Shown: in pieces, positions 25,501 to 46,200 of the stretch
How positions within the stretch are numbered: the first letter of the stretch is position 1
How the letters are laid out: every line of letters starts with the position of its first letter
Source: Mesorhizobium australicum WSM2073
GTDB taxonomy: Bacteria > Pseudomonadota > Alphaproteobacteria > Rhizobiales > Rhizobiaceae
Assembly (NCBI RefSeq): GCF_000230995.2
Contig: NC_019973.1
Location: forward strand, 930,001 to 994,000
DNA: 64,000 bases
Direction of reading: 5' to 3'
Position numbers and translations under genes: made by a program
Notes under the pieces: model-generated
Database searches by the model: none
What the model was told of the DNA's origin: nothing
Seen by the model: the letters and a program-made list of their open reading frames with translations, nothing else

Positions 25501-26430
25501 TGACCCTGAATCTGCGATCTCCAGCGCCACTTTCAGGAGTTCGTCCCCCACGACGAGGCAATCGGCATAGATAACCGACCTCATGGAGCTTTGATCTGCT
25601 ACCGTCAGCCCATCCTTCAGCAGTTCGTAGACGAACCGCGACTTTCCGAATCCGGAAGGACCGACGATGCGGATAATACGGTCCTTGCCCTCCATGCCCT
25701 CCCGGCAAGCCGACCCCGCCTGATCAAAGGACCAGGCATTGATGGCGGAGTTCTTGCGCTCGGTATCCGGGATGGTCCGATTGACCGGAACGTAGCGCGG
25801 TGTCTCAGAAGCTACCCAGGGGACAAAAGCTATGTTCGGTGACTTGCTCCAGCCATCATGGGTTTGAAAACCGGCAAGGGACCGTCCGCGCTGCAGTGCT
25901 GCCAACCATAGAGCGACGGCTGGATGCACGTTAGCCCAATCGGCAATCTTGTTCGCATCGAAATATTCGATTGCTGCAGTTTTGGCCGGATCGCCGCCGC
26001 CATCCTTGATCGCGGCTTGTATGGCGGCGACAAATTTCTTCTTCGCCGCTTCAACAACGGGGTAGGAGCAGAAAACGATATAGGCGCCGCCTTGCGCTAG
26101 GACGTCCGATATAGCCTCGTTGAGTACAACCGGGCCGTCCTTCTTTTTCTTCAGAATTTCGCTGCGAAGTTTGGTCACCGTGAGATTGGTTGCCTTGGCT
26201 TGAAACAGCGTAACGCGGTGTGGAAAGTAGGCGGTCTTGGCAGGGCCGTCGGTCCATTCGACGCGGCCATCTTCGCCCCCGTCAGCCACGGTCACCTGAA
26301 GGGGGACAGAGGCGGCTCGCAATGGCAATCCTGTGAGACGGCATTCGGCGAGTAGCAGGCGTTTCATCAGCTCGACAAGCTTCGTGCTATCGAGAGTCTT
26401 GATGAAATCTGGATCGGCTTCGAATATCAT
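22561..26430 (-). CDS. Large P-loop NTPase with N-terminal PD-(D/E)XK-like domain, candidate antiphage (STAND-like) protein
   Basis: 1,289 residues from the ATG at 26430; a GTG at 26487 and an ATG at 26457 are also in frame, but 26430 leaves ~70 bp for divergent promoters. Residues ~50-80 hold D-G-G-E-D-G-R and, ~23 residues on, Q-A-K, the spacing of Mrr/PD-(D/E)XK nucleases. Walker A GPSGFGKS (257-264) and Walker B-like 'VTLVADE' (312-318) follow, then a winged-helix-like stretch and ~700 residues of helical repeats, probably the sensor part. This nuclease-NTPase-repeat order is that of STAND defence proteins such as the Avs types; assignment to a named type is not possible by eye. It is convergent with int (29-bp gap). 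Confidence 0.7.
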   Translation of the reverse strand: MIFEADPDFIKTLDSTKLVELMKRLLLAECRLTGLPLRAASVPLQVTVADGGEDGRVEWTDGPAKTAYFPHRVTLFQAKATNLTVTKLRSEILKKKKDGPVVLNEAISDVLAQGGAYIVFCSYPVVEAAKKKFVAAIQAAIKDGGGDPAKTAAIEYFDANKIADWANVHPAVALWLAALQRGRSLAGFQTHDGWSKSPNIAFVPWVASETPRYVPVNRTIPDTERKNSAINAWSFDQAGSACREGMEGKDRIIRIVGPSGFGKSRFVYELLKDGLTVADQSSMRSVIYADCLVVGDELLKVALEIADSGSTVTLVADECPDDFHRKLAEFAGRESSQLRLITVNVETKFTQVKGTLTIRLDRADDATIEAIAKSAAPALRQTDAHFVAELANGFPQMAVLGAQQNGDGRDTIRSADQVLDRVIWGDRPHNDEAQKALEVLSLFEWVGFKGQPIGEAAFVAGKLAGMTTDQFIDQILSFKQRGIIETRGSYFQVLPIPLAARLGAPRLGRLSSDALVRIFSDAPDGLKASLLGRMRWLDTSPTAKAFALALLLPEGIGNLAALNTEFGAKCFDRLVHVDPDRAAATIDRVLFPLSHDELQAIRDGRNYLVWALQKLAFRKESFDRSAVLLRRLAATEIDNGHSTGAGETFKQFYQLHLSGTAAEPEVRLRVLDEGLSSLNAAERQVSIDALEQMIATSHFSRGGGAEEIGSAQPLQDWLPKTYGEIWDFHRAGIRRLTDFAVSGGPYADQAKTAIARHIRGLISSVPFEDVRAMIDKIVAHSGLWPDAIEAVTAWLYFDAAEARQEQVTKVRAYFDELMPDDPVDKVIVYTHGWPADFHAPETRYDRGLNGNHDFEYSGRESAKLAPVIAADPDALDRTLGSLCCTEANNAFAFARALAHSAADPVELFRLAVAKLDGGPAAANRQLFGGLITGTDARDPVAARECIRAALRAPKLKDDAISMIGSGKLQPGDLDVVIALLESGDVEPWRCAALSYGRGLDHLSSAEIMPLLNALRKKGAAGLWAALDIVFMYLFGGKRPSPGLVRTIKSVLLAPDLYNKVNQGPMDGSHFFESVELLAKHGAIDTKFARAMTAQIVKLSQVPNSDVFFALDDPAREALQQLLKSHPAEAWEVLSSKLENKDPLVRHRLRRLIDQDREDWLGPGLLFELPRDLYLSWVRAEPATRASIAVPWLPLAVKQHDGSLVWHPAMVSFVEEFGSQPDVLRGLSGRLRPSLMSDSLASYVEPLIPMVSAWQNHHAPAIRAWANAAIDSLRRWIDQDRQEDDDDPLR

Positions 26431-26498
26431 GCGCTCACTAGTAGCAGGAACGGGCATGGGCGCAACGCGCCGGTTTATATAACCCACTGGATAGGCTT

Positions 26499-27116
26499 AT
26501 GAAAAAGGAGTTTCCGAACTTCGCCGCGCTAAAGGGCGCAAAGAAAGAAAACAAGGACTATCGTGTCGTGGTCCGGTCGGGATCGAATACTGGCGGCGCC
26601 CTCGTGATGACACCGCATGGCGGCGGGATCGAGCGTCACGTTTCGATGGTCACCGCGGCTGTCGCGGACGGCGACCTCGATATGTATTGCTTCGAAGGGA
26701 CGATGCGTGACGGCAATGCAGAACTGCACATCACGTCAGAGAATTTTGACGAGGATCGCGCGATCGAGCTGCTGAAAACAAAAAGCACCGTCGTCGCAAT
26801 CCATGGCCGTGCCGACGAGGGTGACGCGGATACGATCTATCTGGGCGGCAAGGATGCCGATCTGGTAGCGGCCATCGATGAGGGCCTGCGAGCTGCGGGA
26901 TTGAAGACAAAAGGCAGCGGACATCGGTTCCCCGGCATGAAAGATTCGAACATCGTCAATCGTGGATCGACGGGCAAAGGGGCACAACTGGAATTGCCCC
27001 TATCTTTGCGCAATCGGCTCGCCAAGGAGCCGGAGCTCTTGGAGACGTTTAGCAGTGCCGTTCGGGGCGCCATTAGCGCGCTCGACTCGGCGCGACGCGA
27101 AGGGGCTACCTCCTAA
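26499..27116 (+). CDS. Poly-gamma-glutamate hydrolase family protein
   Basis: 205 residues matching the PGA-hydrolase family (phage PghP-like, carboxypeptidase-related zinc fold). Visible are the zinc-site motifs 'TPHGGGIERH' (~40-46), 'CFEGTM', 'ELHITSENFDE', 'VVAIHGRAD' (~107), 'IYLGGKD', 'SNIVNRG' and 'QLELPLSLR' (~165), which supply the expected His, Glu, His and Glu. In phages such enzymes strip gamma-polyglutamate; in bacterial genomes the substrate is usually unknown. It lies divergent from the large NTPase gene, an arrangement that suggests shared control, although a joint function is only inferred. No signal peptide, so it should act in the cytoplasm. Confidence 0.82.
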   Translation: MKKEFPNFAALKGAKKENKDYRVVVRSGSNTGGALVMTPHGGGIERHVSMVTAAVADGDLDMYCFEGTMRDGNAELHITSENFDEDRAIELLKTKSTVVAIHGRADEGDADTIYLGGKDADLVAAIDEGLRAAGLKTKGSGHRFPGMKDSNIVNRGSTGKGAQLELPLSLRNRLAKEPELLETFSSAVRGAISALDSARREGATS

Positions 27117-29843: not shown

Positions 29844-30278
29844 TTATTCCAGGTCGGGCTCACGCCGGATATCGGCTGCTAACATTTCCGCTTTTGAGTT
29901 TGCACGCGTCCTAGACTGAAGATCGCACTCCCATATGACGAAAACACGCCATCCTTGCGCTCGCAGCTCATCTTGCACGCGTGCATCGCGAGCGACGTTT
30001 CGGTCAAACTTATCCTTCCAGAACTGTGTGTTGCTCTTCGGCGTAGAGGCGACCTTGCAGCCATCGTGTCGATGCCAAAAGCAACCGTGCACAAACACGA
30101 CGGCGCGATGCTTTGGAAAGACCAAGTCGGGCTTGCCCGGGAGGCCCTTCTTGCGAAGCACGTAGCGAAAGCCGAGGCGGTGGAGCGCCCTGCGCAGCGT
30201 GACCTCCGGCGACGTATCGTTGGATCGTATTCGCGCCATCCTAGCGGAGCGTTCCGCAGGCGACAGGAAGTCCGCCAT
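29844..30278 (-). CDS. vsr: Very-short-patch mismatch endonuclease Vsr
   Basis: 144 residues, full length for the family. It nicks 5' of T in T:G mismatches formed when 5-methylcytosine deaminates. Hallmarks: 'SPAERSARMARIRSNDTSPEVTLRRALHRLGFRYV', 'GKPDLVFPKHRAVVFVHGCFWHRHDGC' (catalytic Asp, then the zinc-site His/Cys cluster), 'FWKDKFDRN', and 'WRVFVIWECDL'. It is the last gene of a five-gene minus-strand operon and starts 3 bp after the giant ATPase gene. Its presence agrees with the C5 methyltransferase heading that operon. Confidence 0.93.
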   Translation of the reverse strand: MADFLSPAERSARMARIRSNDTSPEVTLRRALHRLGFRYVLRKKGLPGKPDLVFPKHRAVVFVHGCFWHRHDGCKVASTPKSNTQFWKDKFDRNVARDARVQDELRAQGWRVFVIWECDLQSRTRANSKAEMLAADIRREPDLE

Positions 30279-30281
30279 GGC

Positions 30282-33200
30282 TTAACCCTCGGCCTTACTC
30301 GCCATCAGCTCGTAGAAGGGCAGGCCCTTGATCACTTGACCCGGCACGTCGAACGACTTGTAGAGGCAATGATGGTTTGGCAGGCCCTTGATCCGTTCCG
30401 CAATCTCGCCTGCCGAGCTCGCCAGACCCAGCGCACTGAGTTCCGCCGCCGTCACGTTGGGGACCTTGTGCACAAACCAGGTGAGCAGCGGCTCCCTGTA
30501 GTCGGTCGCGTTCACCTTGAAGTGCCGGAGGTACTGCGAGGCGAGGATTACGCCGCAGCCGAATTCCCGGCCTTGCAGGAGCAACTTGCGAAGGACGTCG
30601 AATTCGTACCGCATAATGTTGTCGGCTTCGTCGACCAACAAATACGAGTCGATGGCGCGAAGCTGGGGACCCGTTCCAATGAACGGTCGCTTAGGTATGC
30701 GAAGCATGTTCTCATAAAACATGTTCAGCATGACGGCGACCAGCATGTTCTTGCTGCGGTCGTCCTGCCCAAGCGCATCAAGCGAGATCACCACGGCGCC
30801 ATCAAGGAAGTCGGCAAATGGCTTTGTCTTTGTCGGGTCGGGCTCGAAGATTTCCATGTCGACCAAGTCGTCGATGATGGACATCGGGGAATCTGACTTG
30901 CCATCCAGCAATTCGGCATATGCGGCATGGACATCATAGATGGTCGGCGCACGCCCAGCACAATTTTCGTAGGCGGACTTCACGGCGCGCTTCAGCTTGT
31001 CTCGTTGGACCGGACCAATCCCCGAATAGATCTTGTCGAGCACATCGGCAAAAAACCGAAAGCGATCGAGCCAAGGAACCATCGAGTCTTCCATTCCGGC
31101 CGTATCGAAAAGATTGAGCGGAAGACGATAAGGCTTCACGACCCTCGCGCCCGTGGCCTTGACGAAGTCGTCGCTGCTGTAGTCGCGCTTATAGTCGAAG
31201 ATCAGGATGCGCGGCTTTATCCCCCTGTTGCTCGGCGCAGAAGCCGCAATCTGGAAGACGAGGGACTTTAGGAGCTGGGTCTTACCGGTGCCGAGATCAC
31301 CAACCACGCCCATGTTGAGCTGGTTGAGCCTAGTATCCGATAAGAGGAGAGAGACGTCCCTGCGCTCGAACCCGTCGACTGTCATCCCGACCGCAAGCTC
31401 TACCCCGCTGCCGTCGACACCTGGTGCCGGTGGAAGTAATTCCTCCGTGACCACTGGTGCCAAGGCGGGCGGAACAGCCGCACCGCTCGCTTCGGCAGGT
31501 CCGATATCAGCGATCGTTTCCAGCGCAAGATCCAACGGATCGACGATGATTGTGTCGCTGGACTCGTGGTCGCCGTCGGCACGCCTTGCTCCCATCGACC
31601 AATCGCCAATTTTGGCCCTGATACTATCGTAGAATCCCTGTGCGTCACCCGCGACGATCCGCCCGGCGTCGCGCGCCCCAATGACCATTGTCTCCTCAAA
31701 ACCGTCACCATCGCGATCCACAGCATCACTGATGACACTGTCATCAACGACGATCAGACGGCCGCGTCGGTCTACAGTGACATCACCGTTTACCCCGAGG
31801 ACGGCGCCGGCGATCCTCTCGTGGAATCCAGCCCAGTCGGCCGAGGCGCCCGACAGATCATGATGCGCACTATACACCCTCATCCCAAAACCGATGATCG
31901 ACAGCAGCAGGTGCTGGTAGGCGAGGCGCCAGGCCGACAGCGCGTCCTTTTCCTCTGCTAGTACGGAAAGGAGGTCCGCCAGGGATCTTGCCTGGCCAAG
32001 AGCATCCTTGACGTCGGCGACCGGGAACACATAGCCGAGACGGCACTTCACCTCGATCGGAGTCAGGTGAATACGAGTCTTCCCCGATTCCAAGGTGATG
32101 CCAACGACCAGCAGGTCCGGTCGCGCCAGCGTTGCGTCGGGCCGATCTTGGTTTAGCGCCCGCGAGAGGTCATCAAGATATCCGCGGAACGGATCGACGG
32201 GGATGACCAGGGAGATCGTTGGTTCATCGCTACTTCCGCCGATGACGGGCATAAGGCTATTGCCGCTTGATGCTAGTCGGAACCGGTCCTGCAACAGGCG
32301 GGCGGCGACGAAAAGTCCGAGGTCTCCCGTCGCTCCGGTGTCATCGCCAGCGAGCCCGCGGATCGTCGGGATGCCACGGCGCGCGACTTCAAGCAGAATG
32401 TCTTCCACGCGAGAGTCGTCCAGGGCTTCGCAACCGGGCAGACGGGACAGCACCTTCCTAAGGCCATCGCGGTCAGAGGCTTTCACCCGGGACAGCAGAT
32501 AATAGCCGTTAGTATCCCCGGCGCGGTGCGAATAGGACGGAAGATCGTAATCCCACAGATAGGATTGCGGGAGCCAGCCTCCGAGGAAGCACGCGGGGTC
32601 AACCGCAGACGAGGACACAGCGACAAAATCGGTCTTCTTCGCTTCTAGCATGTCGCCGATAGCATGGACGTTTGGAGCGAAGCGAAGCCCTGCCGGCCGT
32701 TCGCCCGTGTTCTCCAAGGCTCCGATACAGGCCGCAACCTTATCCGCCAACGGATCGCCCGAAGTGCTCGCGGGCCGCGCCTGCCGGGACTCGCTTAGAA
32801 AGAAGCCGGGAAGCTGGCGGCGCACCCGATGGCGGATGAGCCCTCCGACGCCAAGGGATGACAGCGACGGCGTCTCCGAAGCTTCCGGCTCCGAAGAGTC
32901 GAGTTGGGCGATAATGCCTAAGTCGAGGCCAGCGCCAACTGGGTGCCCTGAAAACCACCGGACATGGTTCCGGGTGTCTTCGGAGAGATTGGCGATCGTG
33001 GCCTCATCCGGCCTCGCTCCCTCCGTTCTAGTGTCAAATACATCTAGGCGTCGGGGACCGGATGTGTGTCGTCTTGCGGGCTTGCCTCCCTCCGCGTATC
33101 GGGCACCAGACCAGGCGACTAGGCCCTCGTTGCAGGAATCCGTCGCGCCTCCAGCGCTCGAAACAACAACGCTTATGATTGGCTTGGCGCAGAGGACATT

Positions 33201-35741
33201 CGAGACGTCATCGAGCGCCCGTTCCACCTGACTCGCACTAAAGCCTGTCGAGATTCCGCCAACCGAGAGGCCAAGAGCCGGGCCGAAAGGCGCGGAACGA
33301 GACCTTTCAGGCAACGTACGCAGACGCGCGCCATTCCAAAGAACCGACCAATAGTCTGAGTTCGATTCGACGGCTAGGAACGGAATGTGCTCCACCCCTT
33401 CGGGGGAGATAACGGGCATCCGGAGGATATCCGGCACCATCCCAGGATCGAGGACACCAGCTGCTGGGCAGGGCCGGCTACTTGATGCCGACGCGTCCAG
33501 TACACCCTGAGCCACGGCGTGCCACGCCAGGCGCATGGGATGCAGAGGCGAGAGCAGAATGGCGTCGGGCACGCGCGACAGTGTGCGACCGCCCGGCTCC
33601 AGCGAAGCGATCGCGATGACGTCGGACCAAGTCGCCACTTCAGGGCTAGCCTTCAGCCACCCCGCGTAGGCATCGAGGTATTGCTCAATGAGTGCCGGGA
33701 AGGATTCGTCGTTGCGTAGCCACTCCCCCAGGGGGGCGGCCTCTATCAGGCCCGACTGGTCCCCTGGCCCTCGGATCAGCGCAGCGATCGCCCGCCGCGC
33801 CTCTACAAAGCCCGCAGGAGGATCGAAGTGGCTCGCCGGTGGGCGTGGATCCTGAAGGAACCGCCCCGCAGACAAGATTCGTCCGGTCTCCTCCGCCCAC
33901 TTTGGTTGCACCCACTGGTCGCCGTAGTCTTCCGCTAGAACAAGCGGCAGGTATGATAGCGAGACGTCCTCGTCCTGTAGCATCCATGCCTGCAAGCTGC
34001 TCGTCCGCGCGCTCCTGTTCAACTGCACGACAGGTTTCGATCCAGTCGGATCGACCTGCCTTCGGTTTAGCTTGATCAGCCGCTCGAACTCGCTCCTGCA
34101 TCCGTCCTCGACGACGTCCTCGCATGAAAGGAATACACGGCACGTCTCAGAGGCTAACTTGCCGTTCGGCAATGCCCGCTCAAACGAGATGTCGACCTGG
34201 TACGAGCCGTCTGCTTCAACCTCGAGCTGGTGCAAGCCCGGACGCATCTCCCGGAGCACTAGCTCCTGGGAGTCGTCTCCGCCATTGCCATCGCCGCCCG
34301 CTGTCCCTGCCGCTCGCTCCACGACCGTCGTGCCCGGCGACATAAATATCAGGAGCTCGTATCGTCCAGGCCCAGGAAGGGAGATACTCGTCTCCCAATT
34401 TGCCCCGCGCGTTCGCCTTGCGGGTGCCTTCGGGGAAGTGATCTTCCTGGCGAGCCGGCACGCCACAAAGATGCCGGGAAGCCACGTCAAAAGCGATATT
34501 ACCTTGATTGAACCCGGCTTGTGGCTTTCGGCGCTTGCCTTGTATTGGATCGGAGAGCGGTGGGGCGGAGGAGCTGCGTCCGTGAACTCCGCTCCGCCTC
34601 CGACGTCGAGCGCGCCGGGAAAACCGCCGGCATTTTTACCGGGCGAGCGATCGAGCGTCACCGCAACGGGCTCATTGCCTTCGGTTCCCGCTCGGATTGC
34701 AAGTTGGACCTCGCCGTCAACGAGTAGCGGGACTCCCTTCGAGGGAGGCAACAATGGATTGAGGCACTCGAGCCGTATGTCCCCGGTAATCTCCGGCTCG
34801 TCGGTTAGGAGTTCCGCCCATAGCTCGGCTGTTAGCCCCATCCACCAGGCTGGGGGATCACTCAGGCCCAGCCCCGCCGCAGGGGCGTAGAAGGCTTCCG
34901 GCGCTCGCTCTAGCGCCGTAGGCACATCGCACGTCGACCGAATGTGCTGCAGGAAGGCTTCGACCCACACCTTCTGGTCAGTCGCGGCGGCTTCCAGGGC
35001 GTCGGCGAGGCCAGACCTGAAGCCGTCAGATAGCGCAGCAGCGACGCCGTCCAGCGTCGCGTGCTGCTCGCTTGAGGAGAGCTTGTCGTCGGACATTGGC
35101 GGCACGCCGCAGGCAAGGCTGATGCCGCGCGTGGCAGTGAGAGAGCCGCCGCCGACCGCGAACACGCGGGACAGGAGCCGCCACGCCGCTCGGCGGCTAT
35201 CCTTGTCTTGATCGACATCATCCACTGCCCGCATCGCACGCTGCACAAGCTCAGCGGCACTGTCGCGATTGTCGTTAGAGACGCCTGTGGCATCAAGGGC
35301 GGCTGCAATCACGCGTTGGATGAACGAGTCGGCCCACCACTGGTCGAATGGCACGTTGGCACCGTTGCTCGCACCAGACACACCAAATTCGTCAGTTGTG
35401 GACGATACCGACCGGATCGCGTGTTGCCGGGGTGGAACCAAGGCAAGGTAACTCGAAGCGGTCGGCGAATTCCGCAAGTCCAGCAGATGAGTTTCGTCGC
35501 ATCGGCCAGAGGCGCCGATTGGAGGATTGAACCCGTCGGGCTCGTGCCCGGGAACTTGAAGGAGGATCGGCAAGTCTAGAGCAGTCGATCCAGCCACAAG
35601 CAGATCATAGACTTCGCCAAGGACTTCGAGTGGAGGCCCGTGAAAGATGAGCCGCGACTCACCACCGCTAGCAGCTCCAGACGCGGTTTCGGCCACACGA
35701 GACCGGATCGCGCCGGCAAGCCAGTCTGAGAGCTTCCTCAT
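30282..35741 (-). CDS. Giant DptH-like protein: PD-(D/E)XK-type nuclease motif plus HerA/FtsK-like ATPase
   Basis: 1,819 residues from the ATG at 35741, which overlaps the stop of the preceding gene (ATGA); a longer open frame to 36002 is antisense-like and rejected. Residues ~1207-1231 hold 'RPDLLVVGI' and, after ~20 residues, 'PIEVKCR', the PD...E-x-K core of restriction-type nucleases. A HerA/FtsK-type motor follows: Walker A GDLGTGKT (~1479-1486), 'RILIFDYKRDYS', Walker B 'SYLLVDEADNIM' (~1700) and 'ILASQYLRHF'. The first ~1,200 residues are unassigned. Size, order and partners resemble DptH of the phosphorothioation-linked DptFGH restriction machinery, but no dnd genes are nearby. Confidence 0.75.
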   Translation of the reverse strand: MRKLSDWLAGAIRSRVAETASGAASGGESRLIFHGPPLEVLGEVYDLLVAGSTALDLPILLQVPGHEPDGFNPPIGASGRCDETHLLDLRNSPTASSYLALVPPRQHAIRSVSSTTDEFGVSGASNGANVPFDQWWADSFIQRVIAAALDATGVSNDNRDSAAELVQRAMRAVDDVDQDKDSRRAAWRLLSRVFAVGGGSLTATRGISLACGVPPMSDDKLSSSEQHATLDGVAAALSDGFRSGLADALEAAATDQKVWVEAFLQHIRSTCDVPTALERAPEAFYAPAAGLGLSDPPAWWMGLTAELWAELLTDEPEITGDIRLECLNPLLPPSKGVPLLVDGEVQLAIRAGTEGNEPVAVTLDRSPGKNAGGFPGALDVGGGAEFTDAAPPPHRSPIQYKASAESHKPGSIKVISLLTWLPGIFVACRLARKITSPKAPARRTRGANWETSISLPGPGRYELLIFMSPGTTVVERAAGTAGGDGNGGDDSQELVLREMRPGLHQLEVEADGSYQVDISFERALPNGKLASETCRVFLSCEDVVEDGCRSEFERLIKLNRRQVDPTGSKPVVQLNRSARTSSLQAWMLQDEDVSLSYLPLVLAEDYGDQWVQPKWAEETGRILSAGRFLQDPRPPASHFDPPAGFVEARRAIAALIRGPGDQSGLIEAAPLGEWLRNDESFPALIEQYLDAYAGWLKASPEVATWSDVIAIASLEPGGRTLSRVPDAILLSPLHPMRLAWHAVAQGVLDASASSSRPCPAAGVLDPGMVPDILRMPVISPEGVEHIPFLAVESNSDYWSVLWNGARLRTLPERSRSAPFGPALGLSVGGISTGFSASQVERALDDVSNVLCAKPIISVVVSSAGGATDSCNEGLVAWSGARYAEGGKPARRHTSGPRRLDVFDTRTEGARPDEATIANLSEDTRNHVRWFSGHPVGAGLDLGIIAQLDSSEPEASETPSLSSLGVGGLIRHRVRRQLPGFFLSESRQARPASTSGDPLADKVAACIGALENTGERPAGLRFAPNVHAIGDMLEAKKTDFVAVSSSAVDPACFLGGWLPQSYLWDYDLPSYSHRAGDTNGYYLLSRVKASDRDGLRKVLSRLPGCEALDDSRVEDILLEVARRGIPTIRGLAGDDTGATGDLGLFVAARLLQDRFRLASSGNSLMPVIGGSSDEPTISLVIPVDPFRGYLDDLSRALNQDRPDATLARPDLLVVGITLESGKTRIHLTPIEVKCRLGYVFPVADVKDALGQARSLADLLSVLAEEKDALSAWRLAYQHLLLSIIGFGMRVYSAHHDLSGASADWAGFHERIAGAVLGVNGDVTVDRRGRLIVVDDSVISDAVDRDGDGFEETMVIGARDAGRIVAGDAQGFYDSIRAKIGDWSMGARRADGDHESSDTIIVDPLDLALETIADIGPAEASGAAVPPALAPVVTEELLPPAPGVDGSGVELAVGMTVDGFERRDVSLLLSDTRLNQLNMGVVGDLGTGKTQLLKSLVFQIAASAPSNRGIKPRILIFDYKRDYSSDDFVKATGARVVKPYRLPLNLFDTAGMEDSMVPWLDRFRFFADVLDKIYSGIGPVQRDKLKRAVKSAYENCAGRAPTIYDVHAAYAELLDGKSDSPMSIIDDLVDMEIFEPDPTKTKPFADFLDGAVVISLDALGQDDRSKNMLVAVMLNMFYENMLRIPKRPFIGTGPQLRAIDSYLLVDEADNIMRYEFDVLRKLLLQGREFGCGVILASQYLRHFKVNATDYREPLLTWFVHKVPNVTAAELSALGLASSAGEIAERIKGLPNHHCLYKSFDVPGQVIKGLPFYELMASKAEG

Positions 35742-37261
35742 GACGCAACACCCACTCGACCGTGCCGGGCAGCGGCAAATGGTGGCACCAGGAGCATCCC
35801 ACTTTCGGCGTCCGGACTGTCCAGCACCAGGCCGAGCATGCGTAGCTGATGCCCCAGGTCGTTTTGCGCGATGTCGCGATGGTCCACGGCAATTCCATAG
35901 GCGGCCATATGCTGCGCGAGCCGATGCACCGATCGAGGCCCAGCGAGGCCCGCTAGCGAACAATGTACCAAGGCGAGCACGGCAACGGGGCCTGGGGAGC
36001 ACACCCAGGGGCTGGATTTGGCCGCTCCACGCTTCCGCAAGATGTAGCCTTGGTCATAGCCCCGAAGGATCGGGTTCGCGGCCTGGCGTTGGTAGAGGAC
36101 ATGCCGCCCGAACTCCATGAGGTTCGAGCCCACTCCCTTGCGGCAGAGGAGCGCCCGGGCCTCCCTGTCGGCAAGGTCGTCGACAAGGCTCGTGACCTCT
36201 AGCAGTTTCGACCGATGTGCGCCGACATGGCGGCAAAAGTCCCCGAGCTCAGCGGCGGAGGAAAGTTGCCCCGCAAATGGTGCTCCGGCCTCTTCCAGAC
36301 TCCAGAGCACCGCATTCATGCCGAGGCGTGAACGTAGGTACTTCGATGTTCGGTCCTTAAGTTCCGAAACCGCGCCCGTGCCATAGCTGAGATAACTCAG
36401 CACGCGAGGGTAAAACAACGTCCGTGGATCATCGGGTACGGGCTGGCCCTCAACCGAGCGCCTTACGCTATCCCACGTCATTTTCTGAACTTCGCAAAGC
36501 CACGCCACATGTGCCACAGCTGCGACCCGCACGAGGGCCTCAACGAGGCTGGTCCATTGCCGGCGCGTCATCAAAGGCTTTGCGGCAACGACGGCGTCGA
36601 GGTCTCGAACAAACTGGCGCGCTGGAAACGCGTAGCCTTCGAGCTCAGCCGGCGGAAGGCAATGCACGTCGTTCGCATCGGGCGGGATGCACGCAGGTCC
36701 CCAGCTGATCCCAGTCCAAGCGGACAGCTCGTCTCTCAGGAACCGCGCAAAAACGTCATCATCGTCGTGCACCATCAATGCATCGAACAGATTTGCCCAA
36801 CGGGCCTCCGCAGCCTTGTCACTGTTGGATCCAAGCCAGACCATCCTACGCACAAGAGCGCCCGCCGGCCACGGATTGCCAGCCAGGCGAGCGGACCCCG
36901 AGAATGACGCGGTCTCCCCGACTAGAGGCGTTACTTGCAGGAAGCGCTTCGTCGACTGGTTGGGAAGCTTCGGGCTTTCCAGCACATCGTGCAGGAGCGC
37001 GTGCAGGGCATCGCCCTCTAGCGATGCGCCAGCTGGCTTGGTCCGCCTGTCACGGCGGGTACCGATGTTGCGATCGAGCTCCCTTCCCTTAAGAGGAACC
37101 ATGCCCTCGCTCAGCCCAGCCAGTCCGATAGTTCGATATAGTCCCGCTACGAGGACTTCGGAGTTGGCGTATTCTGGCGCCGGGGTTATGGAGAGCGCTG
37201 CCGCCTTGTAGAGCGGGTGGGATTTCGCCCACGGCGACGCCTTGAATTCCGCAAGGCTCAT
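35738..37261 (-). CDS. Unknown protein in DptG-like position
   Basis: 507 residues, starting at an ATG that overlaps the stop of the ATPase gene before it (ATGA) and ending in an ATGA overlap with the giant gene after it. It is largely helical. No motif is recognised; the C-terminal third has 'NPILRGYDQGYILRKRGA' and 'PGPVAVLALVHCS', then a helix-turn-helix-like 'SVHRLAQHMAAYGIAVDHRDI'. Strict translational coupling on both sides says it acts in a complex with the two ATPases. By position it corresponds to DptG, but I cannot show homology by eye. Confidence 0.7.
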   Translation of the reverse strand: MSLAEFKASPWAKSHPLYKAAALSITPAPEYANSEVLVAGLYRTIGLAGLSEGMVPLKGRELDRNIGTRRDRRTKPAGASLEGDALHALLHDVLESPKLPNQSTKRFLQVTPLVGETASFSGSARLAGNPWPAGALVRRMVWLGSNSDKAAEARWANLFDALMVHDDDDVFARFLRDELSAWTGISWGPACIPPDANDVHCLPPAELEGYAFPARQFVRDLDAVVAAKPLMTRRQWTSLVEALVRVAAVAHVAWLCEVQKMTWDSVRRSVEGQPVPDDPRTLFYPRVLSYLSYGTGAVSELKDRTSKYLRSRLGMNAVLWSLEEAGAPFAGQLSSAAELGDFCRHVGAHRSKLLEVTSLVDDLADREARALLCRKGVGSNLMEFGRHVLYQRQAANPILRGYDQGYILRKRGAAKSSPWVCSPGPVAVLALVHCSLAGLAGPRSVHRLAQHMAAYGIAVDHRDIAQNDLGHQLRMLGLVLDSPDAESGMLLVPPFAAARHGRVGVAS

Positions 37262-39342
37262 TGGCGTCCCCCGCGCTTCCCTGCCTCGAAGCGTCCGCGA
37301 TATCGTTCTACGGATACTGTTTCTCCCAGGATGATCGTAGGCCGCTCGCGCACGTCACGATCCCTGACGATGGATCCCGCCATCCGAGCTCTCGTCGTGT
37401 CTAGAAGAGCAAGCACGCTACGGGGAAGCGACGCCGGCGAGAGCCCTTGGTCAAGATCGCTCACGGCTTTGAAGAGGTCGTATGTCAACGCGATTGGCTG
37501 CGGCGTTGATCCCACCTCCACGTCCAGGAAGCAGATCGACGGACGCGGGCGTCCCTTGAGGGCAACGTCGCGAGGGAAGACACGCCGGCGCGACACAACC
37601 AGCGTCGCTCGGCGACGGGACGGTGGTAGTGGCTGGCCGAACGTCGTTGTCAGCGACACGTTGAAATTGTGGTCGTCGTTGAGGAGGTCCTCAACCTGAT
37701 TTGCGATCTCTCGCAGGTCGTGGCCCTGCCCGTCGGCATCCGCGACAACGCGCTTGAACGCGTCCAATGTCGCCGCGTCGGGCACTGCCGCATTCCTCGC
37801 GCCGACGCTGCGACGCGTTACCCTGCAGGCGAAGTCCCTCACGGCGCGCTGGATGCGGTTGGCAGCGGCTGGCCGCTTGAGCCGCAGCCGCGGAACAGCG
37901 AGAAGTTCATCTAGGACGGAAAGACGCTCTAGCAGCATCCGCTCGTTATGCGACAATGCCCTGCAGGCAATCGCGTAGTCCAGGCCCTCGCGAACAGACC
38001 GGCTGAACCGGGCGTCAAATTCGCCCAGCCGAACCGACCCGCCCCATAGCGTCACTTCGGCATCCGGCGACGACATTGCGGGATCCAACAGCTCGACAAA
38101 AGCGTCCAGCGACGCCGCAATCGTTGCCGGAACGTAACCTGCGATTCGTGACTGCAAAAAGTAGTGCAGCCCCATCGCTGTGTTGTCTTCCTGCAAGCCG
38201 AGATCACGGATGTCTTGGAGCAAGGAGGACGCGAGGCCGCGGTCCCAGCGATGGAAAAGTGCGTGCTGGTACTGAGCCGAAACGAGCCAAAACAGCGCAG
38301 CCGACGTGTCGCGCTTGGGTCTTCCACGCAGTTGGGCCTGCTTGTCGGCCTCCACCAGACTCGCGGCCCATTCACATGGATCGACGGAGGCCCCGCGCTG
38401 TCCGGTTCCGCTCCCGGCCAACATGTAGGAGGTCAGGGAAAAGAGATCCCGGAAGGCCCAGCGCTTGCTCGTCCCGAGTTCGAACCATCGCAGCATACGG
38501 AGAAAAGATTCAGCCTCCCTTCGCCCGGCCAACGCCTTTCGGCTGCCGCAGAACGGACAAGCGATGCCGGCCTGGCAAGTCCCGGCCTCAAGCCAGCGCG
38601 CGGGATCGAGCGCCCGGCTAAGTACTGCCGCCGCAGGCGCGTCATCGTCGTTGTCGGTTGGCTCGACCAAGGACTCGGCGTCCATAGGCCATGCTGCGAC
38701 CGCTGGATACTCTTCCAGCGGCCAACACGACGGTGCGTCGGGTGCCAGGCTCACAGCACGTACGACCGCCTCCAGCAAGTCCTGCGACTTGCTCAGTCCG
38801 CGGTCGATCGATTGAATCAACGCGTCGTCGAGGACTCCGCGGTTCACACAGCAGATGAATGCTCCAGTAGGCGACCCCAGCGCGGCTTCCAGTTCGTCTA
38901 CGAGCAACATAGCGGGAGAGTAGCCGCCTTGTCCTCCGACCGTTGCGTCTTGGACTACCTCGATCCGAAGATCTCGCTCGGGCTGGCTCGTCGCGCCCAC
39001 GTCCACGGCAACAAGCCGCGGAACGGCCTTACCCGCTGGTGGGTGATAGGATTTTGCCAATTCTTCAACGAGCGCCCCGCTACAGCTGAGCGCCTTGTCG
39101 AGCTCCTCAATGGTCGCCTCGACGGCTTCCGTTTTTCCGTTGCCCGGTCCGCCGACCAATAGCACCACACGGGGTGCTTCCTTGTCCGCGGCCGCGATGC
39201 TTCGCGCCCAATCTCGCAGTCGGCCGAGAAGATTCGTCTCGAAAACGACTTCCCCTGGGCGGCCGCTGGCTGAGTCGAAAAGGCGCCTTACTCCGCCGCC
39301 GCGATGGCCCGCCCAGTCAAGCAAGCCTGCTGGATAGCGCAT
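37258..39342 (-). CDS. DptF-like AAA-type ATPase
   Basis: 694 residues from the ATG at 39342 (GAGGGGAGG upstream); an in-frame TTG at 39384 is a weaker choice. Walker A GGPGNGKT lies at 64-71 and a Walker B-like 'MLLVDELEA' at ~149. A possible zinc site follows: C256, C262 and C265 in 'CQAGIACPFCG'. Then 'FRDLFSLTSYMLAG', a block I associate with DptF. The rest is helical. It is the second gene of the operon, 62 bp after the methyltransferase, and is coupled to the next gene. In Dnd-linked restriction DptF is the small ATPase partner of DptG and DptH. Confidence 0.72.
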   Translation of the reverse strand: MRYPAGLLDWAGHRGGGVRRLFDSASGRPGEVVFETNLLGRLRDWARSIAAADKEAPRVVLLVGGPGNGKTEAVEATIEELDKALSCSGALVEELAKSYHPPAGKAVPRLVAVDVGATSQPERDLRIEVVQDATVGGQGGYSPAMLLVDELEAALGSPTGAFICCVNRGVLDDALIQSIDRGLSKSQDLLEAVVRAVSLAPDAPSCWPLEEYPAVAAWPMDAESLVEPTDNDDDAPAAAVLSRALDPARWLEAGTCQAGIACPFCGSRKALAGRREAESFLRMLRWFELGTSKRWAFRDLFSLTSYMLAGSGTGQRGASVDPCEWAASLVEADKQAQLRGRPKRDTSAALFWLVSAQYQHALFHRWDRGLASSLLQDIRDLGLQEDNTAMGLHYFLQSRIAGYVPATIAASLDAFVELLDPAMSSPDAEVTLWGGSVRLGEFDARFSRSVREGLDYAIACRALSHNERMLLERLSVLDELLAVPRLRLKRPAAANRIQRAVRDFACRVTRRSVGARNAAVPDAATLDAFKRVVADADGQGHDLREIANQVEDLLNDDHNFNVSLTTTFGQPLPPSRRRATLVVSRRRVFPRDVALKGRPRPSICFLDVEVGSTPQPIALTYDLFKAVSDLDQGLSPASLPRSVLALLDTTRARMAGSIVRDRDVRERPTIILGETVSVERYRGRFEAGKRGGRQ

Positions 39343-39404
39343 CCTCCCCTCGGTGCCCCCGGTCTTATGCAAGTTGATCGACAATTCGAAAGTCGGTCGC
39401 CATG

Positions 39405-40778
39405 TTATGCTGCCAGCCTGTTAGAGCGAGCCGCCGCTGCTAGGTGCTTCAGCAGCACTTCGCCCCACATCTCGGCGATCAGCGGCGGAACGGCATTCGC
39501 CACCTGGGTAAAACGAGGCACCTCGCGGGCCCGACGCTCGCCCCCGGTTGTATATTTGCCTTGGAATGCAAACCAGTCTGGGAACGTCTGCAGGCGCGCG
39601 TTTTCCCGGACCGTCAATGTCCTAGGCTCCGAATAGTGAAGCAGGTCGTCAGGCATGCTCGTAATGGTCGGGGCAGCTTTTTCGGGGTCGAGCACCCGCG
39701 TCGCCATCTTCCTTATCCCGTAGCGTTCGCGCATCTCGCGGTTTAGCTGAACGCAGAGCCGGCCGGCTGCCTTACAATCCGCGATGATGTTCGTGAAGCG
39801 CTCGATAATATGAGGGCGGTGCTTAGCGAGCCGGGTATCGGGAACTGCACCATGAAATCCATCCCGCATCACGCGCTGGTAGGCGGTGCGTGGCTGAGCT
39901 GTGAGCAAGGCGTCGTATCCCTTGGAATCCGGGCAAGGACCCGAGCCCGCATGCGCTAGCTCAAGGTCAGAGATCGCCTGCCTGCAGGTCACCCTTGAGC
40001 GAAGCCCTCGTTGGTCGAGGAAGCGCACTTTCGCCGATCGCAACCGGGCAAACGGGTCGTCGCGGCGTGGCAGCTTCCTCATCTCGGTCTTCAGCATGCC
40101 TACCAGGAAGAACCGAGGCCGCTGTTGAGGCACCCCATATTCCGAGCACCGGACCGTGTCTTTGTAAACATGATAATGTCGGCCAAGTCGCGCGATGAGC
40201 TCCTCCGCGAAGTTCCGGGGCGGGACATTTTCGTTGTCGTCAATGAAGTCGTACGTGATCCCTCGAACATTCTCGATGAGGACCATCCTGGGGAGCACGA
40301 TTTCGACGAACTCAAGATAGCGTTCCACGAGCTCGTTGCGCGGGTCGCCTTGGCGCCTACGGCCGGCACTGGAGAAGCCCTGGCAAGGCGGTCCTCCCGC
40401 AAGGAGATCGATTTGGCCGCGGAGCGCTGAGAGCTTGTCGCCATGCGTTTCCACCAGCGCCTCGATCGTCCATGGCTGCTGTTCAAGCCAGGCGGGCCAG
40501 TCGTAGCGAACCCGCGCTCCCGGATCGATCAGGTTGGCTTTCAGCGTACTAAACGCAAACGCATCCTTCTCGATAGCGAACAGGCCCCGCCACCCGGATC
40601 GTAGCAGGCCCAGACTGAGGCCGCCACAGCCCGCGAAGGCGTCGATGAAGACAGGTTGATAGCCATTGGTACGCACGCTCATCCCCAGTTCGCCCCCACG
40701 CCAATTCGAGCCGGGAAGAGTTACGTTGAAACCCAATCCTGCGCCATATGTTCTGTCGCAAGACAGCAGCATATACAT
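39405..40778 (-). CDS. DNA (cytosine-5-)-methyltransferase
   Basis: 457 residues. The ATG at 40778 is preceded by GAAGGA at good spacing. The C5-methylase motifs are all in order: I 'FAGCGGLSLG', IV 'GGPPCQGFS' with the nucleophile Cys, VI 'ENVRG', VIII 'QQRPRFFLVG', IX 'LTVRENARLQTFPDWF' and X 'QVANAVPPLIA'. The target-recognition region between VIII and IX is short, ~150 residues. It heads a five-gene operon with two ATPases, an unknown protein and Vsr. The simplest reading is that it marks self DNA for a restriction complex made by the next three genes. Confidence 0.93.
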   Translation of the reverse strand: MYMLLSCDRTYGAGLGFNVTLPGSNWRGGELGMSVRTNGYQPVFIDAFAGCGGLSLGLLRSGWRGLFAIEKDAFAFSTLKANLIDPGARVRYDWPAWLEQQPWTIEALVETHGDKLSALRGQIDLLAGGPPCQGFSSAGRRRQGDPRNELVERYLEFVEIVLPRMVLIENVRGITYDFIDDNENVPPRNFAEELIARLGRHYHVYKDTVRCSEYGVPQQRPRFFLVGMLKTEMRKLPRRDDPFARLRSAKVRFLDQRGLRSRVTCRQAISDLELAHAGSGPCPDSKGYDALLTAQPRTAYQRVMRDGFHGAVPDTRLAKHRPHIIERFTNIIADCKAAGRLCVQLNREMRERYGIRKMATRVLDPEKAAPTITSMPDDLLHYSEPRTLTVRENARLQTFPDWFAFQGKYTTGGERRAREVPRFTQVANAVPPLIAEMWGEVLLKHLAAAARSNRLAA

Positions 40779-41061
40779 TTAATCCTTCGTTTCGCTTAAG
40801 GTCCAGAGGTTATCACCTCATCGGCCATGGCGCCGGTATTCATCCCAAACGCATGAGCACAACGCGTTCAACACGGCGCGCCACCCCGCATGATGCCCGA
40901 CAAGAAAACGTCACCTGAACACGCAGCGCATCGGCCGTGGACGATCAGATGTCCAACCATTGATTCTCCGGTTGTGCTCCACACGTCATCTCCGTTGACT
41001 CTTTGCCAGGATGAGAACAAAGAAGGAACATACCACAGGAATTCCGAGTTTCAAGGGACAG
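40779..41061. other. Divergent promoter region between methyltransferase and imuA
   Basis: 283 bp between two operons pointing away from each other. The imuA side has TTGACT at 40995-41000 as a possible -35 and a LexA box where a -10 would be. On the methyltransferase side no clear promoter is seen. Confidence 0.55.
41015..41029 (+). promoter_or_regulatory. LexA (SOS) box upstream of imuA
   Basis: GAAC-AAAGAAG-GAAC, an exact alphaproteobacterial LexA operator, 33 bp before the imuA ATG at 41062. It overlaps an in-frame upstream ATG (41011), which therefore cannot be the real start. imuA-imuB-dnaE2 cassettes are known LexA targets. Confidence 0.85.
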
Positions 41062-41823
41062 ATGAGTGCATCGGCGCCAACAGCTGTCATTTCCGATCTT
41101 CGAGACCGCATCGCGCGTCTCGAAGGCGGAAATGCGCGCGAACGGGCGGTGCTTCCTTTTGGCATCGCGGCTATCGACCGAGTGCTGCCGGGAGGAGGAC
41201 TGGCGCTTGGCGCGCTGCATGAGGTGGCAGGCGGCGGAAATGGCGCGATCGATGGCGCGGCAGCTGCATTGTTCGCGGCCGGTATTGCGGCCCGGACGCA
41301 TGGGAAGGTCCTTTGGTGCGTGACGCGGCCGGATCTCTTTGCCCCGGCAATCGCGCAGGCCGGGCTAGCGCCCGATCGCGTGATCTATGTCGAGGCGGGC
41401 GACGAGACGTCCCTTCTTGCCTGCTTCGAGGAGGGGCTGCGGCATCCTGGGCTCGGTGCTGTTGTCGCCGAGGTTGCTCGCCTCTCCATGACAGCGTCGC
41501 GGCGTCTCCAACTTGCCGCCGAGACGTCCGGCGCCATCGGGATTGCCGTCCGCCGCTGGCGCCGGCAGACCGAGGCCGCCGACTTCGGACAGCCGACGGC
41601 TTCCATCACCCGGTGGCGAGTGTCGGTGCTTCCTTCATCCCCTTTGCCGGTCCCGGGCGTTGGACGTGCACGCTGGCAGCTGGAGCTGATCCGGTGTCGT
41701 GCCGGCAAAAGTGCGGATTTCGAAGTAGAGGCAAGCGATGACAAGGGTCGTATCGCTCTTCCTTCCAACGTGGTCCACGGATCGCCTCAGAAGGAAATTG
41801 GGCGACGCCGCGCCTCCTCGTGA
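41062..41823 (+). CDS. imuA: ImuA, RecA-like accessory protein of mutagenic translesion synthesis
   Basis: 253 residues; start at 41062 because the LexA box lies before it and AGGGAC precedes it. The protein has the ImuA layout: 'LRDRIARLEG', 'FGIAAIDRVLPGGGLALGALHEVAG', 'GKVLWCVTRPDLFAPAIAQAGLAPDRVIYVEA', 'EEGLRHPGLGAVVAEVARLSMTASRRLQLAAE' and 'WRVSVLPSSPLPVPGVGRARWQLELIRCRAG'. ImuA works with ImuB and DnaE2 in error-prone synthesis past damaged bases. Overlaps imuB by 86 bp. Confidence 0.9.
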   Translation: MSASAPTAVISDLRDRIARLEGGNARERAVLPFGIAAIDRVLPGGGLALGALHEVAGGGNGAIDGAAAALFAAGIAARTHGKVLWCVTRPDLFAPAIAQAGLAPDRVIYVEAGDETSLLACFEEGLRHPGLGAVVAEVARLSMTASRRLQLAAETSGAIGIAVRRWRRQTEAADFGQPTASITRWRVSVLPSSPLPVPGVGRARWQLELIRCRAGKSADFEVEASDDKGRIALPSNVVHGSPQKEIGRRRASS

Positions 41824-43261
41824 GACGCCGCTCGTCCTGACAGGACGTGATGGACGACGCCGTGTCGTGCTCGCCGCCGATCCCGCGGCGCTTGCCGTTG
41901 GCCTGCGCGTCGGCATGCCGGCCACCAAGGCGCAGGCCTTGGTGAAGGATCTCGTCGTCAACGACGCGGATCCACAAGACGACGCCGAGGCACTCGACCG
42001 TCTCGCGGTATGGGCGCTCCGGCGCTATGCGCCGATCGTTGCCCCCGATCCGCCAGATGGTCTGGTCATCGATACGACCGGCGCCGACCATCTGCATGGC
42101 GGTGAAAGCGCCATGCTCGCCGATATGGTCGAGCGCCTCGCTGCGGCCGGCTTTGCCGCGCGTGCGGCAATCGCCGACAGTTGGGGCGCCGCCCATGCAT
42201 TGGCACGTTTTGGCGTCGGGCCGATGATTGTCGTTCACCCTGCCGGAAACGCCAACGCGATCGCGAACCTGCCGATCGCAGCGCTCCGGCTGCCGGCCGA
42301 CATGGTAGACAGCCTCCGCAAGCTTGGCCTGGACCGCATCTTAGACCTCGTCGCCAAGCCGCGCGCGCCGTTCGCCTTGAGGTTCGGACCCGAACTCGGT
42401 CGTCGTCTCGACCACGCGATGGGCCGGCTCTCTGAACCGATCGATCCCATCCGCCCGCCGGACATCATCGAAGTGCGCCAAATGTTCGGCGAGCCGATCG
42501 GTGCTGCCGAGACGATCGCCCGCTACACCGGAAAACTCGTCGGTGAACTTTGCGACCTTCTCGAAACCCGAAGCCTCGGTGCCCGCCGCCTCGATCTTTT
42601 GCTTCACCGGGTCGACAATCGCATCGAGGCAATCCGCATCGGCACAGCATTGCCGCTGCGGGATGCAAAGCGGTTATCCCGCCTGCTCACCGACAAGATT
42701 GAAACCATCGATCCAGGCTTCGGCATCGAGTTGATGCGGCTCGCCGCCACCATCGCCGAACCGCTGGTATCCAGGCAGACGATCTCCTCGCTCATCGAAA
42801 CTCCCGAGGCTGATGTCTCCGATCTCATCGACACGCTTTCCAACCGCGTCGGCGAGGAGCGTCTCTATCGCATGGCGCCGATGGCGAGCGACGTGCCTGA
42901 GCGATCCGTACGACGGGTAGCGCCGACAGCGCCAGAGAGTGGAGAAGGATGGCCTAGACACTGGCCGCGTCCGGCTCGTCTGCTGCCAGTTCCGGAGCCG
43001 ATCGAGACCGTGGCGCTGTTGCCGGATCATCCACCTGTCACCTTCATCTGGCGCGGCATACGCCGGCGAGTCAAACGAGCTGATGGTCCTGAACGCATCT
43101 TCGGTGAGTGGTGGAGGCGCGACGCTGAACTGATCGCCGTGAGGGATTATTTCCAGGTCGAGGACGAAGCCGGCGAGCGTTACTGGATTTATCGTGCCGG
43201 TGATGGCGAGGATCTCACGACTGGCTCGCATCGCTGGTTTCTGCACGGAATCTTCGGATGA
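41738..43261 (+). CDS. imuB: ImuB, Y-family polymerase-like protein
   Basis: 507 residues. It resembles Y-family polymerases ('[20 protein letters not shown]', '[14 protein letters not shown]', '[16 protein letters not shown]', 'HALARFG', a helix-hairpin-helix near '[17 protein letters not shown]', and a little-finger-like part from ~240). The usual acidic catalytic residues of a DinB palm are not seen, as is typical for ImuB, which acts as a clamp-binding hub for ImuA and DnaE2. Second gene of the SOS cassette, joined to dnaE2 by an ATGA overlap. Confidence 0.92.
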
Positions 43262-46200
43262 CGACCACGCGCTACGTCGAGTTGCAGGTGACCTCGCACT
43301 TCTCGTTTTTGCGCGGTGCAAGTTCGTGCGAAGAGCTGTTTGCACAGGCGGCTGCGCTCGGTATTGAGGCGCTCGCCATCGTCGACCGCAACAGCCTTGC
43401 CGGTATAGTGCGAGCCCACGAAGCGGCGAAGACCACGGGCGTCAGGCTGATTGTCGGCTGTCGTCTTGACCTCAGGGATGGCATGTCCGTCCTCGTCTAT
43501 CCGACCGATCGGCCCGGTTATTCCAGGCTCTGCCGGCTGCTGTCTCTCGGGAAAGGCCGCGGGGGCAAGGCCAAGTGCATCTTGGACTGGTCCGATCTCG
43601 TCGCCTATGGCGAGGGGCTGATTGCCGTCTTGGTCCCGGATGAACCCGACGAAACCGGTACGCAGCACTTGCGCTGGCTGCGCGACGCGTTCGAGGACCG
43701 AGCCTACATGGCGCTGACGTTGCGCCGGCGACCGAACGATCAACTCAGGCTGTACGAATTGGCGAACCTGGCCGCGAAGATGGGCGTGCCGACCGTCGTG
43801 ACCAACGACGTGTTGTTTCACATTCCGGCACGCCGAATCCTGCAGGATGTCGTTACTTGCATCCGCCACAACGTCACCATCGATGATGCCGGCTTCAGAC
43901 GCGAACGGCACGCCGATCGTTATCTCAAGCCGCCAGAGGAAATGGAGCGCCTGTTCAGCCGTTATCCCGAAGCGCTCGCCCGCACCGTCGAAATCGCAGA
44001 TCGCTGTCGCTTTTCGCTCGATGAACTCGCTTACCAGTATCCGGAAGAGCGGATGCTGCCCGACCTGACGCCGCAACAGGCTTTGGAGAAGCTCACATGG
44101 GAGGGTGCGACAGAGCGCTTTCCCGAAGGTGTGCCCGACAAGGTAACATCGATCCTGAAACACGAGCTTCAGCTGATCGAAAAGCTGGAGTACGCCCCAT
44201 ACTTTCTGACCGTGAAGTCGATCGTCCGCTTCGCCCGCAGCCGGGACATATTGTGCCAGGGTCGTGGTTCGGCTGCCAATAGCGCGGTCTGTTATGTGCT
44301 CGGCATCACCTCGATCGATCCGGAGCGCAACGATCTGCTTTTTGAGCGCTTCGTTTCCGAGGAACGCCGCGAGCCGCCCGACATCGATGTTGATTTCGAG
44401 CACGAACGGCGCGAGATCGTCATGCAGTGGGTGTTCGAGACCTACGGCCGCGATCATGCCGCACTTTGCTCGACTGTAATCCGCTACCGGTCGAAAGGCG
44501 CCATGCGCGATGTCGGTAAGGCGCTGGGCCTTACCGAAGACCTGATCAAGATGCTGTCCGGCCAGGTCTGGGGCTGGTCGACAGAGGGGGTCGAGCCGAA
44601 ACATGCCGAGGAGTTGAATCTCAACCTCGGCGATCGCCGCCTGCGGCTGGCGCTCGAACTCGCCCGCGAGTTGATAGGAGCGCCGCGCCATCTCTCCCAG
44701 CATCCTGGCGGTTTCGTGCTGACGCGCGACCGGCTCGATGATCTGGTCCCGATCGAACCGGCCGCCATGAAAGACCGGCAGGTCATCGAATGGGACAAGG
44801 ACGACATCGATGCGCTGAAATTCATGAAGGTCGACGTGCTTGCGCTGGGCATGCTGTCCTGCATGAAGCATGGCTTCGATCTGCTTGCACAGCACAAGGG
44901 CATTAGTCTCGACCTTGCAACGATCCCTGCCGAGGATCCGCGCACCTATGCGATGATCCGCAAGGCCGATACGCTCGGAACCTTCCAGATCGAATCCCGG
45001 GCGCAGATGTCGATGCTGCCCCGCATTAAGCCGCGGACCTTCTATGATCTGGTGATCGAGGTGGCGATCGTGAGGCCAGGGCCGATCCAAGGCGACATGG
45101 TGCATCCGTATCTGCGCCGGCGCGAAGGCAAGGAGGACGTCGTCTACCCCAAGCCCGAGCTCGAAAAGGTGCTCGGAAAAACGCTGGGCGTGCCGCTGTT
45201 TCAGGAGCAGGCAATGCGGGTGGCGATCGAATGCGCCGGCTTTACGCCGGGCGAAGCCGACCAGCTTCGCCGCGCCATGGCGACATTCAAGCATACCGGC
45301 GGCGTGTCGAAATTCGGCACCAAGCTGATCGTAGGCATGGTGAAGAACGGCTACGAGCGGGAGTTCGCAGAGAAGACCTTCAAGCAGCTCGAAGGCTTCG
45401 GCAGTTACGGCTTTCCAGAAAGCCATGCAGCAAGCTTTGCGCTGATCGCTTACGCCTCATCCTGGATGAAATGCCACCATCCCGATGTCTTTTGTGCCGC
45501 GCTCCTCAATGCCCAGCCAATGGGCTTCTATGCGCCTGCGCAGATCGTCCGCGATGCGCGCGATCACGGCGTTGAAGTCCGTCCTGTCTGCGTCAACGCC
45601 TCACGATGGGATTGCACGCTCGAGCCAACCGACCAGGACGATCGCTTCGCCGTTCGGCTCGGTCTGCGCATGGTGCGTGGACTTGCCAACGCCGACGCCG
45701 CGACCATCGTCACCGCACGCGCCGATCAGCCTTTCGTTTCGGTCGATGATCTCTGGCGCCGGGCCGGTGTTCCAGCTTCATCGCTCGTCGAACTCGCCGA
45801 GGCCGATGCGTTTCAACCCTCTTTGTCGCTGGCCAGGCGCGAGGCGCTCTGGGCCATCAAGGCGCTGCGCGATGAACCACTGCCGCTGTTTGCTGCAGCC
45901 TCCGCGCGTGAGCAGGAAACGGTGCCGGAGATCCAGGAGCCGATCGTGACATTGCGGCCCATGACTGCCGGCGGCGAGGTCGTCGAGGACTATGGCCATG
46001 TCGGCCTGACGCTGCGGGACCATCCCGTCACCTTTCTGCGCGCGGATCTTCGGCGCAGGCGCATCGTCACCTGCCGCGAGGCAATGCTGGCACGCGACGG
46101 CCAATGGCTGGAGGCCGCCGGCCTCGTTCTCGTCCGTCAGCGGCCCGGTTCAGCCAAAGGCGTCATGTTCGTCACGCTGGAAGACGAAACCGGCATCGCC

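Follow-up and report, generated by a model that had tools for sequence, protein, structure and literature searches.

The 64,000-nucleotide stretch of the Mesorhizobium australicum WSM2073 genome analysed here (contig NC_019973.1, positions 930,001 to 994,000; hereafter the window) carries on its minus strand, from 40778 to 29844, an operon of five genes—M, F, G, H and Vsr—the open reading frames (ORFs) of which were all confirmed at the place claimed for them in an initial annotation. The first gene, M (39405-40778), encodes a cytosine-5 (C5) DNA methyltransferase of 457 residues with its catalytic motifs present. It is followed by F (37258-39384), a P-loop protein of the DndF/SspF type with a cysteine cluster and an asparagine at the Walker B position, counting 708 residues from a TTG start; by G (35738-37261), a DndG-like protein of 507 residues; by H (30282-35741), a DndH-like protein of 1,819 residues, if started, instead of at the beginning of the raw ORF (36002), from the ATG that overlaps G; and by Vsr (29844-30278), a Vsr mismatch endonuclease of 144 residues. 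The spacings M/F, F/G, G/H and H/Vsr are 20, -4, -4 and 3 bases, respectively, and an in-frame ATG 42 bases after the TTG of F would extend the first of them to 62 bases, so that the compact five-gene order with overlaps or gaps of at most 62 bp, as originally described, holds for both starts.

The operon is not confined to this place, the set of loci gathered in the present study comprising 13 members, including the window and a paralogue from the same genome. When F was used as the query, a match was found in 1 of 397 genomes of the order and 1 of 385 genomes of the class (the own genome in both cases), as well as in 5 of 146 genomes of the genus, one of these being weak and dropped. A seven-row F profile matched 2 of 398 genomes of the phylum (the own one and G943), and F of G943 found, among 78 genomes of its order, only G943 itself. 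The scan of genome contigs yielded one locus, from Bradyrhizobium sp. 21, the plasmids gave four matches in 72,556 records (Shinella, Sinorhizobium, Rhizobium and Pseudoalteromonas) and the set of viral contigs two matching contigs. Dropped were the weak F match of G854 (E 6.5e-4, 29%, residues 101-237, one stop), the partial H match of another Sinorhizobium fredii GR64 record (CP002245.1), and the H-only matches in Vibrio plasmids and elsewhere that covered the ATPase alone.

All five genes are intact and in the same order in nine of the 13 loci (the window, L003, L004, L005, L006, L007, L014, L015 and L028), and this recurrence indicates that the arrangement is not due to chance. As for the remaining ones, L013 has the same five genes in order, of which F, G and Vsr are open, M and H both being divided between frames (8815-10172 and 13819-19274); L027 reaches the end of its contig after M-F; L029 contains M-F-G-H; and L008 exhibits the order F-G-x-H-M. 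A C5 methylase adjoins F or H in every locus (split in L013), being the first gene in 12 of them and the last one in L008, and Vsr is present in 10 of the 12 loci uncut by a contig end. The four-base overlap is seen at the F/G junction in 9 of 11 loci and at the G/H junction in 8 of 11; the rest of these junctions overlap or are 15 bases apart, with the exception of L008, where G and H are separated by 523 bases and one extra gene. The second copy in the own genome (L004, at 6.10 Mb) has all five genes, F, G and H being 54-58%, M 44% and Vsr 55% identical to those of the window. The alignments used below consist of 11 rows and leave out L027, owing to the contig end after F, and L013, owing to the split M and H.

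The protein M matches PF00145 (E 1.6e-43), and the motifs I, IV (PPCQ), VI (ENV), VIII and X are all present in 11 of 11 aligned sequences; it is, as judged from its sequence, a C5 methylase with intact motifs, which would presumably be active, recognise a motif of its own and methylate the host fully. Vsr matches TIGR00632 above the curated cut-off (E 3e-43) and aligns with the solved Vsr of E. coli (1cw0) over residues 3-130 (E 4e-29). The own genome contains exactly two matches to PF00145 and two to Vsr (E<=0.001), all inside the two copies of the operon, and C5 methylase and Vsr are therefore found in this genome only together with F-G-H. It could be argued that Vsr, rather than being a repair enzyme, serves as the effector nickase of the complex, Vsr-type domains acting as nucleases in other defence systems and its gene being the last one in the 10 loci that have it; such a role is, however, quite improbable for a separate protein that exceeds the curated cut-off and aligns with the E. 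coli enzyme over residues 3-130, instead of being a fused domain, and that is missing from two F-G-H loci.

Profile and motifs alike identify the giant protein H as a relative of DndH. Its HerA/FtsK ATPase (approximately 1458-1816) matches the DndH model of PADLOC over 1475-1813 (E 1.1e-70) and DptH of the PDB entry 7es4 (E 3e-62), with the Walker A, the Walker B and the sensor glutamine kept in 11/11 sequences; in BLAST, the 33-35% identity to DptH-type proteins covers the ATPase part only. The nuclease residues predicted near positions 1207-1231 are indeed there: D1209, E1230 and K1232 form a PD-(D/E)XK site (RPD...EVK) invariant in all 11 aligned proteins, the window included, the EVK of which was aligned with the canonical PLEVK, and the pattern P[LIVM]EVK was found in four of five canonical DndH proteins. 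Outside the ATPase, a profile signal with an hhalign score of 50.2 extends over 259 columns and ends in the nuclease. The structure model (mean pLDDT 52.9) yields tandem beta-sandwich domains at approximately 320-542, as in DndH, and is too poor beyond the sandwiches; a second look at it did not list the remaining DndH domains, which, given the poor model, excludes nothing. As regards the inactive adenine-methylase domain and the target recognition domains of DndH, the motif [NDS]PP[YFWH] is absent from 11/11 H sequences, as it is from 5/5 canonical DndH proteins, the model being too poor in that region, and no PADLOC family matched H 1-1200 in any of the 11 members. It may be mentioned that two Vibrio plasmids (L018, 10138-13149; L022, 10111-13047) encode, beside mobI and TraG, proteins—one of them annotated as UvrD-helicase—the ATPase domain of which shares 34-37% identity with the one in H, consistent with the proposed capture of a HerA domain.

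The assignment of G comes from its predicted fold, the best match of the structure model being DndG, the fold of which G thus seems to share. Against PADLOC, the 11 G proteins gave neither DptG nor mad7, and one of them gave a single match to JetA (E 6.5e-4); the Pfam search returned just four scattered matches (E 0.06-0.94), each in one of the 11 sequences. F, for its part, resembles DndF/SspF by its motifs and, weakly, by profile: the motifs GGPGNGKT, CC[VI]N and C-x5-CPFC are invariant in 11/11 aligned sequences, as is the cysteine cluster C270, C276 and C279, and PADLOC SspF matches two of the 11 weakly (best E 0.069). As a side remark, the PADLOC model PDLC03556, named Type II restriction enzyme, matches canonical DndF proteins strongly (L016, 7119-8729, E 1.7e-156; L017, 3421-5019, E 2.7e-122), so that some proteins of the DndF kind go under the name of Type II enzymes.

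The profile comparison with hhalign used five sequences each of DndF, DndG and DndH and one each of SspF and SspG, the sets being small because the TIGR03237 search of 299 genomes gave one sequence over the cut-off and the SspF search of 199 genomes also one. F scored 38.9 with DndF and 29.8 with SspF vs 15.9-20.9 for 10 mismatched pairs, the known kin pairs DndF-SspF and DndG-SspG reaching 25.4 and 31.4, respectively; G showed no profile signal with the one SspG (14.7). First, shallow runs had given 1.4% for G and, for F, 47% over the Walker A alone. With the deeper sets the scores exceed those of the mismatched controls, the absolute probabilities being low (2-47%).

Based on the above results, the operon probably constitutes a restriction-modification (R-M) system, the restriction half of which would be a translocating nuclease complex of the DndFGH type and the modification half the C5 methylase. 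M would methylate its motif in the host chromosome; F, G and H would assemble into a complex, with G and the N-terminal part of H contacting the DNA and F binding a nucleotide; the HerA motor of H would translocate the DNA and the PD...EVK site would nick or cut it where the host mark is missing, the trigger and the order of these events being likewise conjectural; and Vsr, if it acts as in known very-short-patch repair, would repair the T:G mismatches arising from deamination of 5-methylcytosine. The cutting of unmarked DNA is proposed by analogy with SspFGH—and, according to the same paper, DndFGH—which, when unrestrained, damages hosts without its mark (PMC8092258). The putative guidance by the lack of cytosine methylation, with Vsr protecting against deamination damage, as the initial annotation suggested, fits the co-inheritance of the genes. 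If M were indispensable as long as H is functional, the joint splitting of M and H in L013 would be expected, and this one case may also be an assembly error.

The main rival of the R-M reading sees in F-G-H a standalone counter-invader complex, triggered by signals of the invader, as has been suggested for DndFGH, with M and Vsr as a separate, self-stabilising pair in which the loss of M would do harm via Vsr and not via F-G-H. DndFGH has indeed been argued to be a standalone system (PMC10853773), and in Caulobacter, cells that lose the solitary C5 methylase ScmA mount a damage response that depends on Vsr (PMC12907096). The loci speak rather against it, since the C5 methylase accompanies the trio also in the two loci without Vsr, one of them with an altered gene order, and since M, F, G and H overlap the next gene or are at most 28 bases away from it in eight of the nine intact five-gene loci; independence of the two parts is thus considered unlikely. 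A further alternative is a Type IV-like complex attacking methylated DNA, where M would mark the targets or serve another end. Some restriction systems are modification-dependent (PMC12904381), but since M opens the operon in 12 of 13 loci, the host itself ought to become a target. The profile searches with F, G and H (E<=0.1) brought up no domain that reads 5-methylcytosine, a weak argument given that Pfam models leave most of G and H unmatched. This possibility is judged very unlikely.

It should be pointed out that several observations weigh against the R-M reading with a DndFGH-type restriction half. Neither F (DndF/DptF in PADLOC; TIGR03238 in NCBIfam, E<=0.1) nor G (DptG in PADLOC; TIGR03236 in NCBIfam, E<=0.1) of the window matches the curated models and H does not match TIGR03237 (NCBIfam, E<=0.1); the canonical trio L016 matches all three of TIGR03238, TIGR03236 and TIGR03237. 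The profile probabilities remain low outside the HerA domain, both structure models (G and H) are of low confidence, Vsr is missing from the two most distant relatives, a matched specificity domain did not emerge (see below), and the conserved linkage could also reflect a methylase retained for some other reason. The likeness of the trio to dptF-dptG-dptH claimed by the initial annotation stands for G by predicted fold, for H by profile and motifs and for F by motifs and a weak profile signal, the curated DptF and DptG models being unmatched. The claim was to be abandoned if none of the three proteins had a significant profile match to Dpt families, and this did not happen, because H matches the DndH models. 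Its other statement, that dnd modification genes are absent, agrees with the lack of any DndC match in the genome (E<=0.001) and of any dnd modification family among the operon proteins, the other dnd genes having not been searched genome-wide; a complete Dnd phosphorothioation system was rejected, as no DndC was found in the genome.

The methylases fall into two classes with identities of 41-47% between and 59-94% within them, a split that is not clearly mirrored by the identities of F, G, H and Vsr. Among the local stretches of F, G and H compared with this split, a few pass 0.12 in one of two measures (F 401-442 and 541-590, G 14-76 and 223-295, and H 742-788) and none in both; most of M passes both, and it is for this reason that no matched specificity domain could be assigned. 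In the tree of F+G+H, the M class 2 occupies one side of a branch (support 69/58), without conflict with the class split. The loci L008 and L029 are 73-79% identical in F, G and H and 37% in M, which is placed last in L008 and first in L029; these identities suggest methylases of different origin, and the approximately unbiased test did not reject one M clade for both (p 0.077). The methylase would seem, from these comparisons, to be exchangeable while the presence of some C5 methylase is not, the p of 0.077 giving no proof of it. L008 itself (Pseudoalteromonas plasmid, 9722-22400), which has its methylase last, no Vsr and an extra protein of 164 residues between G and H, carries upstream an HNH protein and a methyltransferase of class I that gives a mad2-like match (E 2.6e-12).

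With DndFGH/DptFGH, the operon shares three overlapping genes in the order F-G-H, a G the model of which best matches DndG and an H with the DndH-type HerA domain, the PD-(D/E)XK site and the tandem beta-sandwiches; it differs by the added C5 methylase and, across the loci, usually Vsr, by the lack of DndC in the genome, and by a divergence of F, G and H that puts them beyond the reach of the curated Dpt models. Type II R-M systems with a C5 methylase and Vsr likewise have both in one operon, but here there is no separate small endonuclease gene, the nuclease site being part of a translocase-type protein of 1,819 residues that has two partners. MADS, a system of eight genes, joins DNA methylation to a relative of DndG (PADLOC mad7 matches canonical DndG) and to the HerA relative mad8, which matches H of the window (E 8e-12), whereas mad7 matches none of the 11 G proteins. 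A coupling of methylation with DndG-like and HerA-like proteins is, as far as the PADLOC models tell, known already from MADS, named in PMC12904381. As regards SspFGH, it is also a three-gene module with a Walker-A F and an FtsK-like H (PMC8092258), and F of the window aligns with the one SspF over the Walker A, the asparagine-bearing Walker B and the cysteine cluster; the difference concerns G, which gave no profile signal with the one SspG. Another DptFGH is situated beside a base-methylation R-M pair on a Priestia plasmid (L021, 1-13047), its start lying approximately 320 bases downstream of the genes for a Dam-type methylase and an AlwI-type restriction enzyme.

In the literature, DndFGH 'lacking an inbuilt modification module' and cytosine methylases linked to the CxC-DndE core have been described (PMC10853773). 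'Vsr' does not occur in the main text of that paper or in the available part of PMC12839542. No title or abstract start among the matches listed describes a DndFGH-type trio with a C5 methylase and Vsr, most subscription journals and all supplements lying outside this scope; within the same limits, the combination is, as the initial annotation stated, not known as a described system.

The cassette is horizontally spread, on plasmids and beside other defence genes, and the operon copies are found in defence-island and mobile settings. In the window, a second defence gene is located nearby (22561-26487, minus strand; 1,308 residues, PADLOC PD-Lambda-4_A, E 1.5e-97), and on the far side of the defence genes a tyrosine recombinase (21284-22531, plus strand; PF13356, PF00589) may bound an integrated island ending near 41 kb. 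HamA (17028-17849, plus strand, E 6e-101) is near the second copy L004 and Druantia DruE (2572-8676, minus strand, E 0) near the Shinella copy L003, and the copy from Bradyrhizobium sp. 21 is preceded by a recombinase. Divergent from the operon, 41011-46527 (plus strand) encodes a Y-family polymerase and a polymerase III alpha, preceded by a 270-residue ORF without a Pfam match. We take these to be an ImuB-like and a DnaE2-like polymerase and an ORF in the ImuA position, which would place a cassette for SOS mutagenesis next to a DNA-damaging system. The window further contains a 4,146-residue ORF without a Pfam match at E<=0.001 (3380-15820, plus strand) and a protein of the poly-gamma-glutamate hydrolase family (26499-27116, plus strand; PF05908, E 2.8e-45), which is often encountered in phages.

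The way in which DndFGH and related systems discriminate between self and foreign DNA is a question on which this clade bears. In Dnd systems, the host genome carries the modification at only 10-15% of the consensus sites, and all eight dnd genes occur in only 316 taxa vs DndFGH components in 1,798 (PMC10853773). There is about an even chance that the DndFGH-type machine serves as a restriction engine of general use that is indifferent to the kind of mark, and for which in this clade the self mark would be 5-methylcytosine from an exchangeable C5 methylase. If so, a base-methylation module would here be built into a DndFGH-type system—an arrangement not described in the available part of the PMC10853773 census—and the machinery need not read sulphur. 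Since a C5 methylase is a single enzyme, experiments can approach the question directly in a clade where this kind of machinery is linked to one: a single gene suffices to add or remove the mark, ordinary methylome sequencing reads it, and the two paralogous copies in one genome allow a test of cross-protection.

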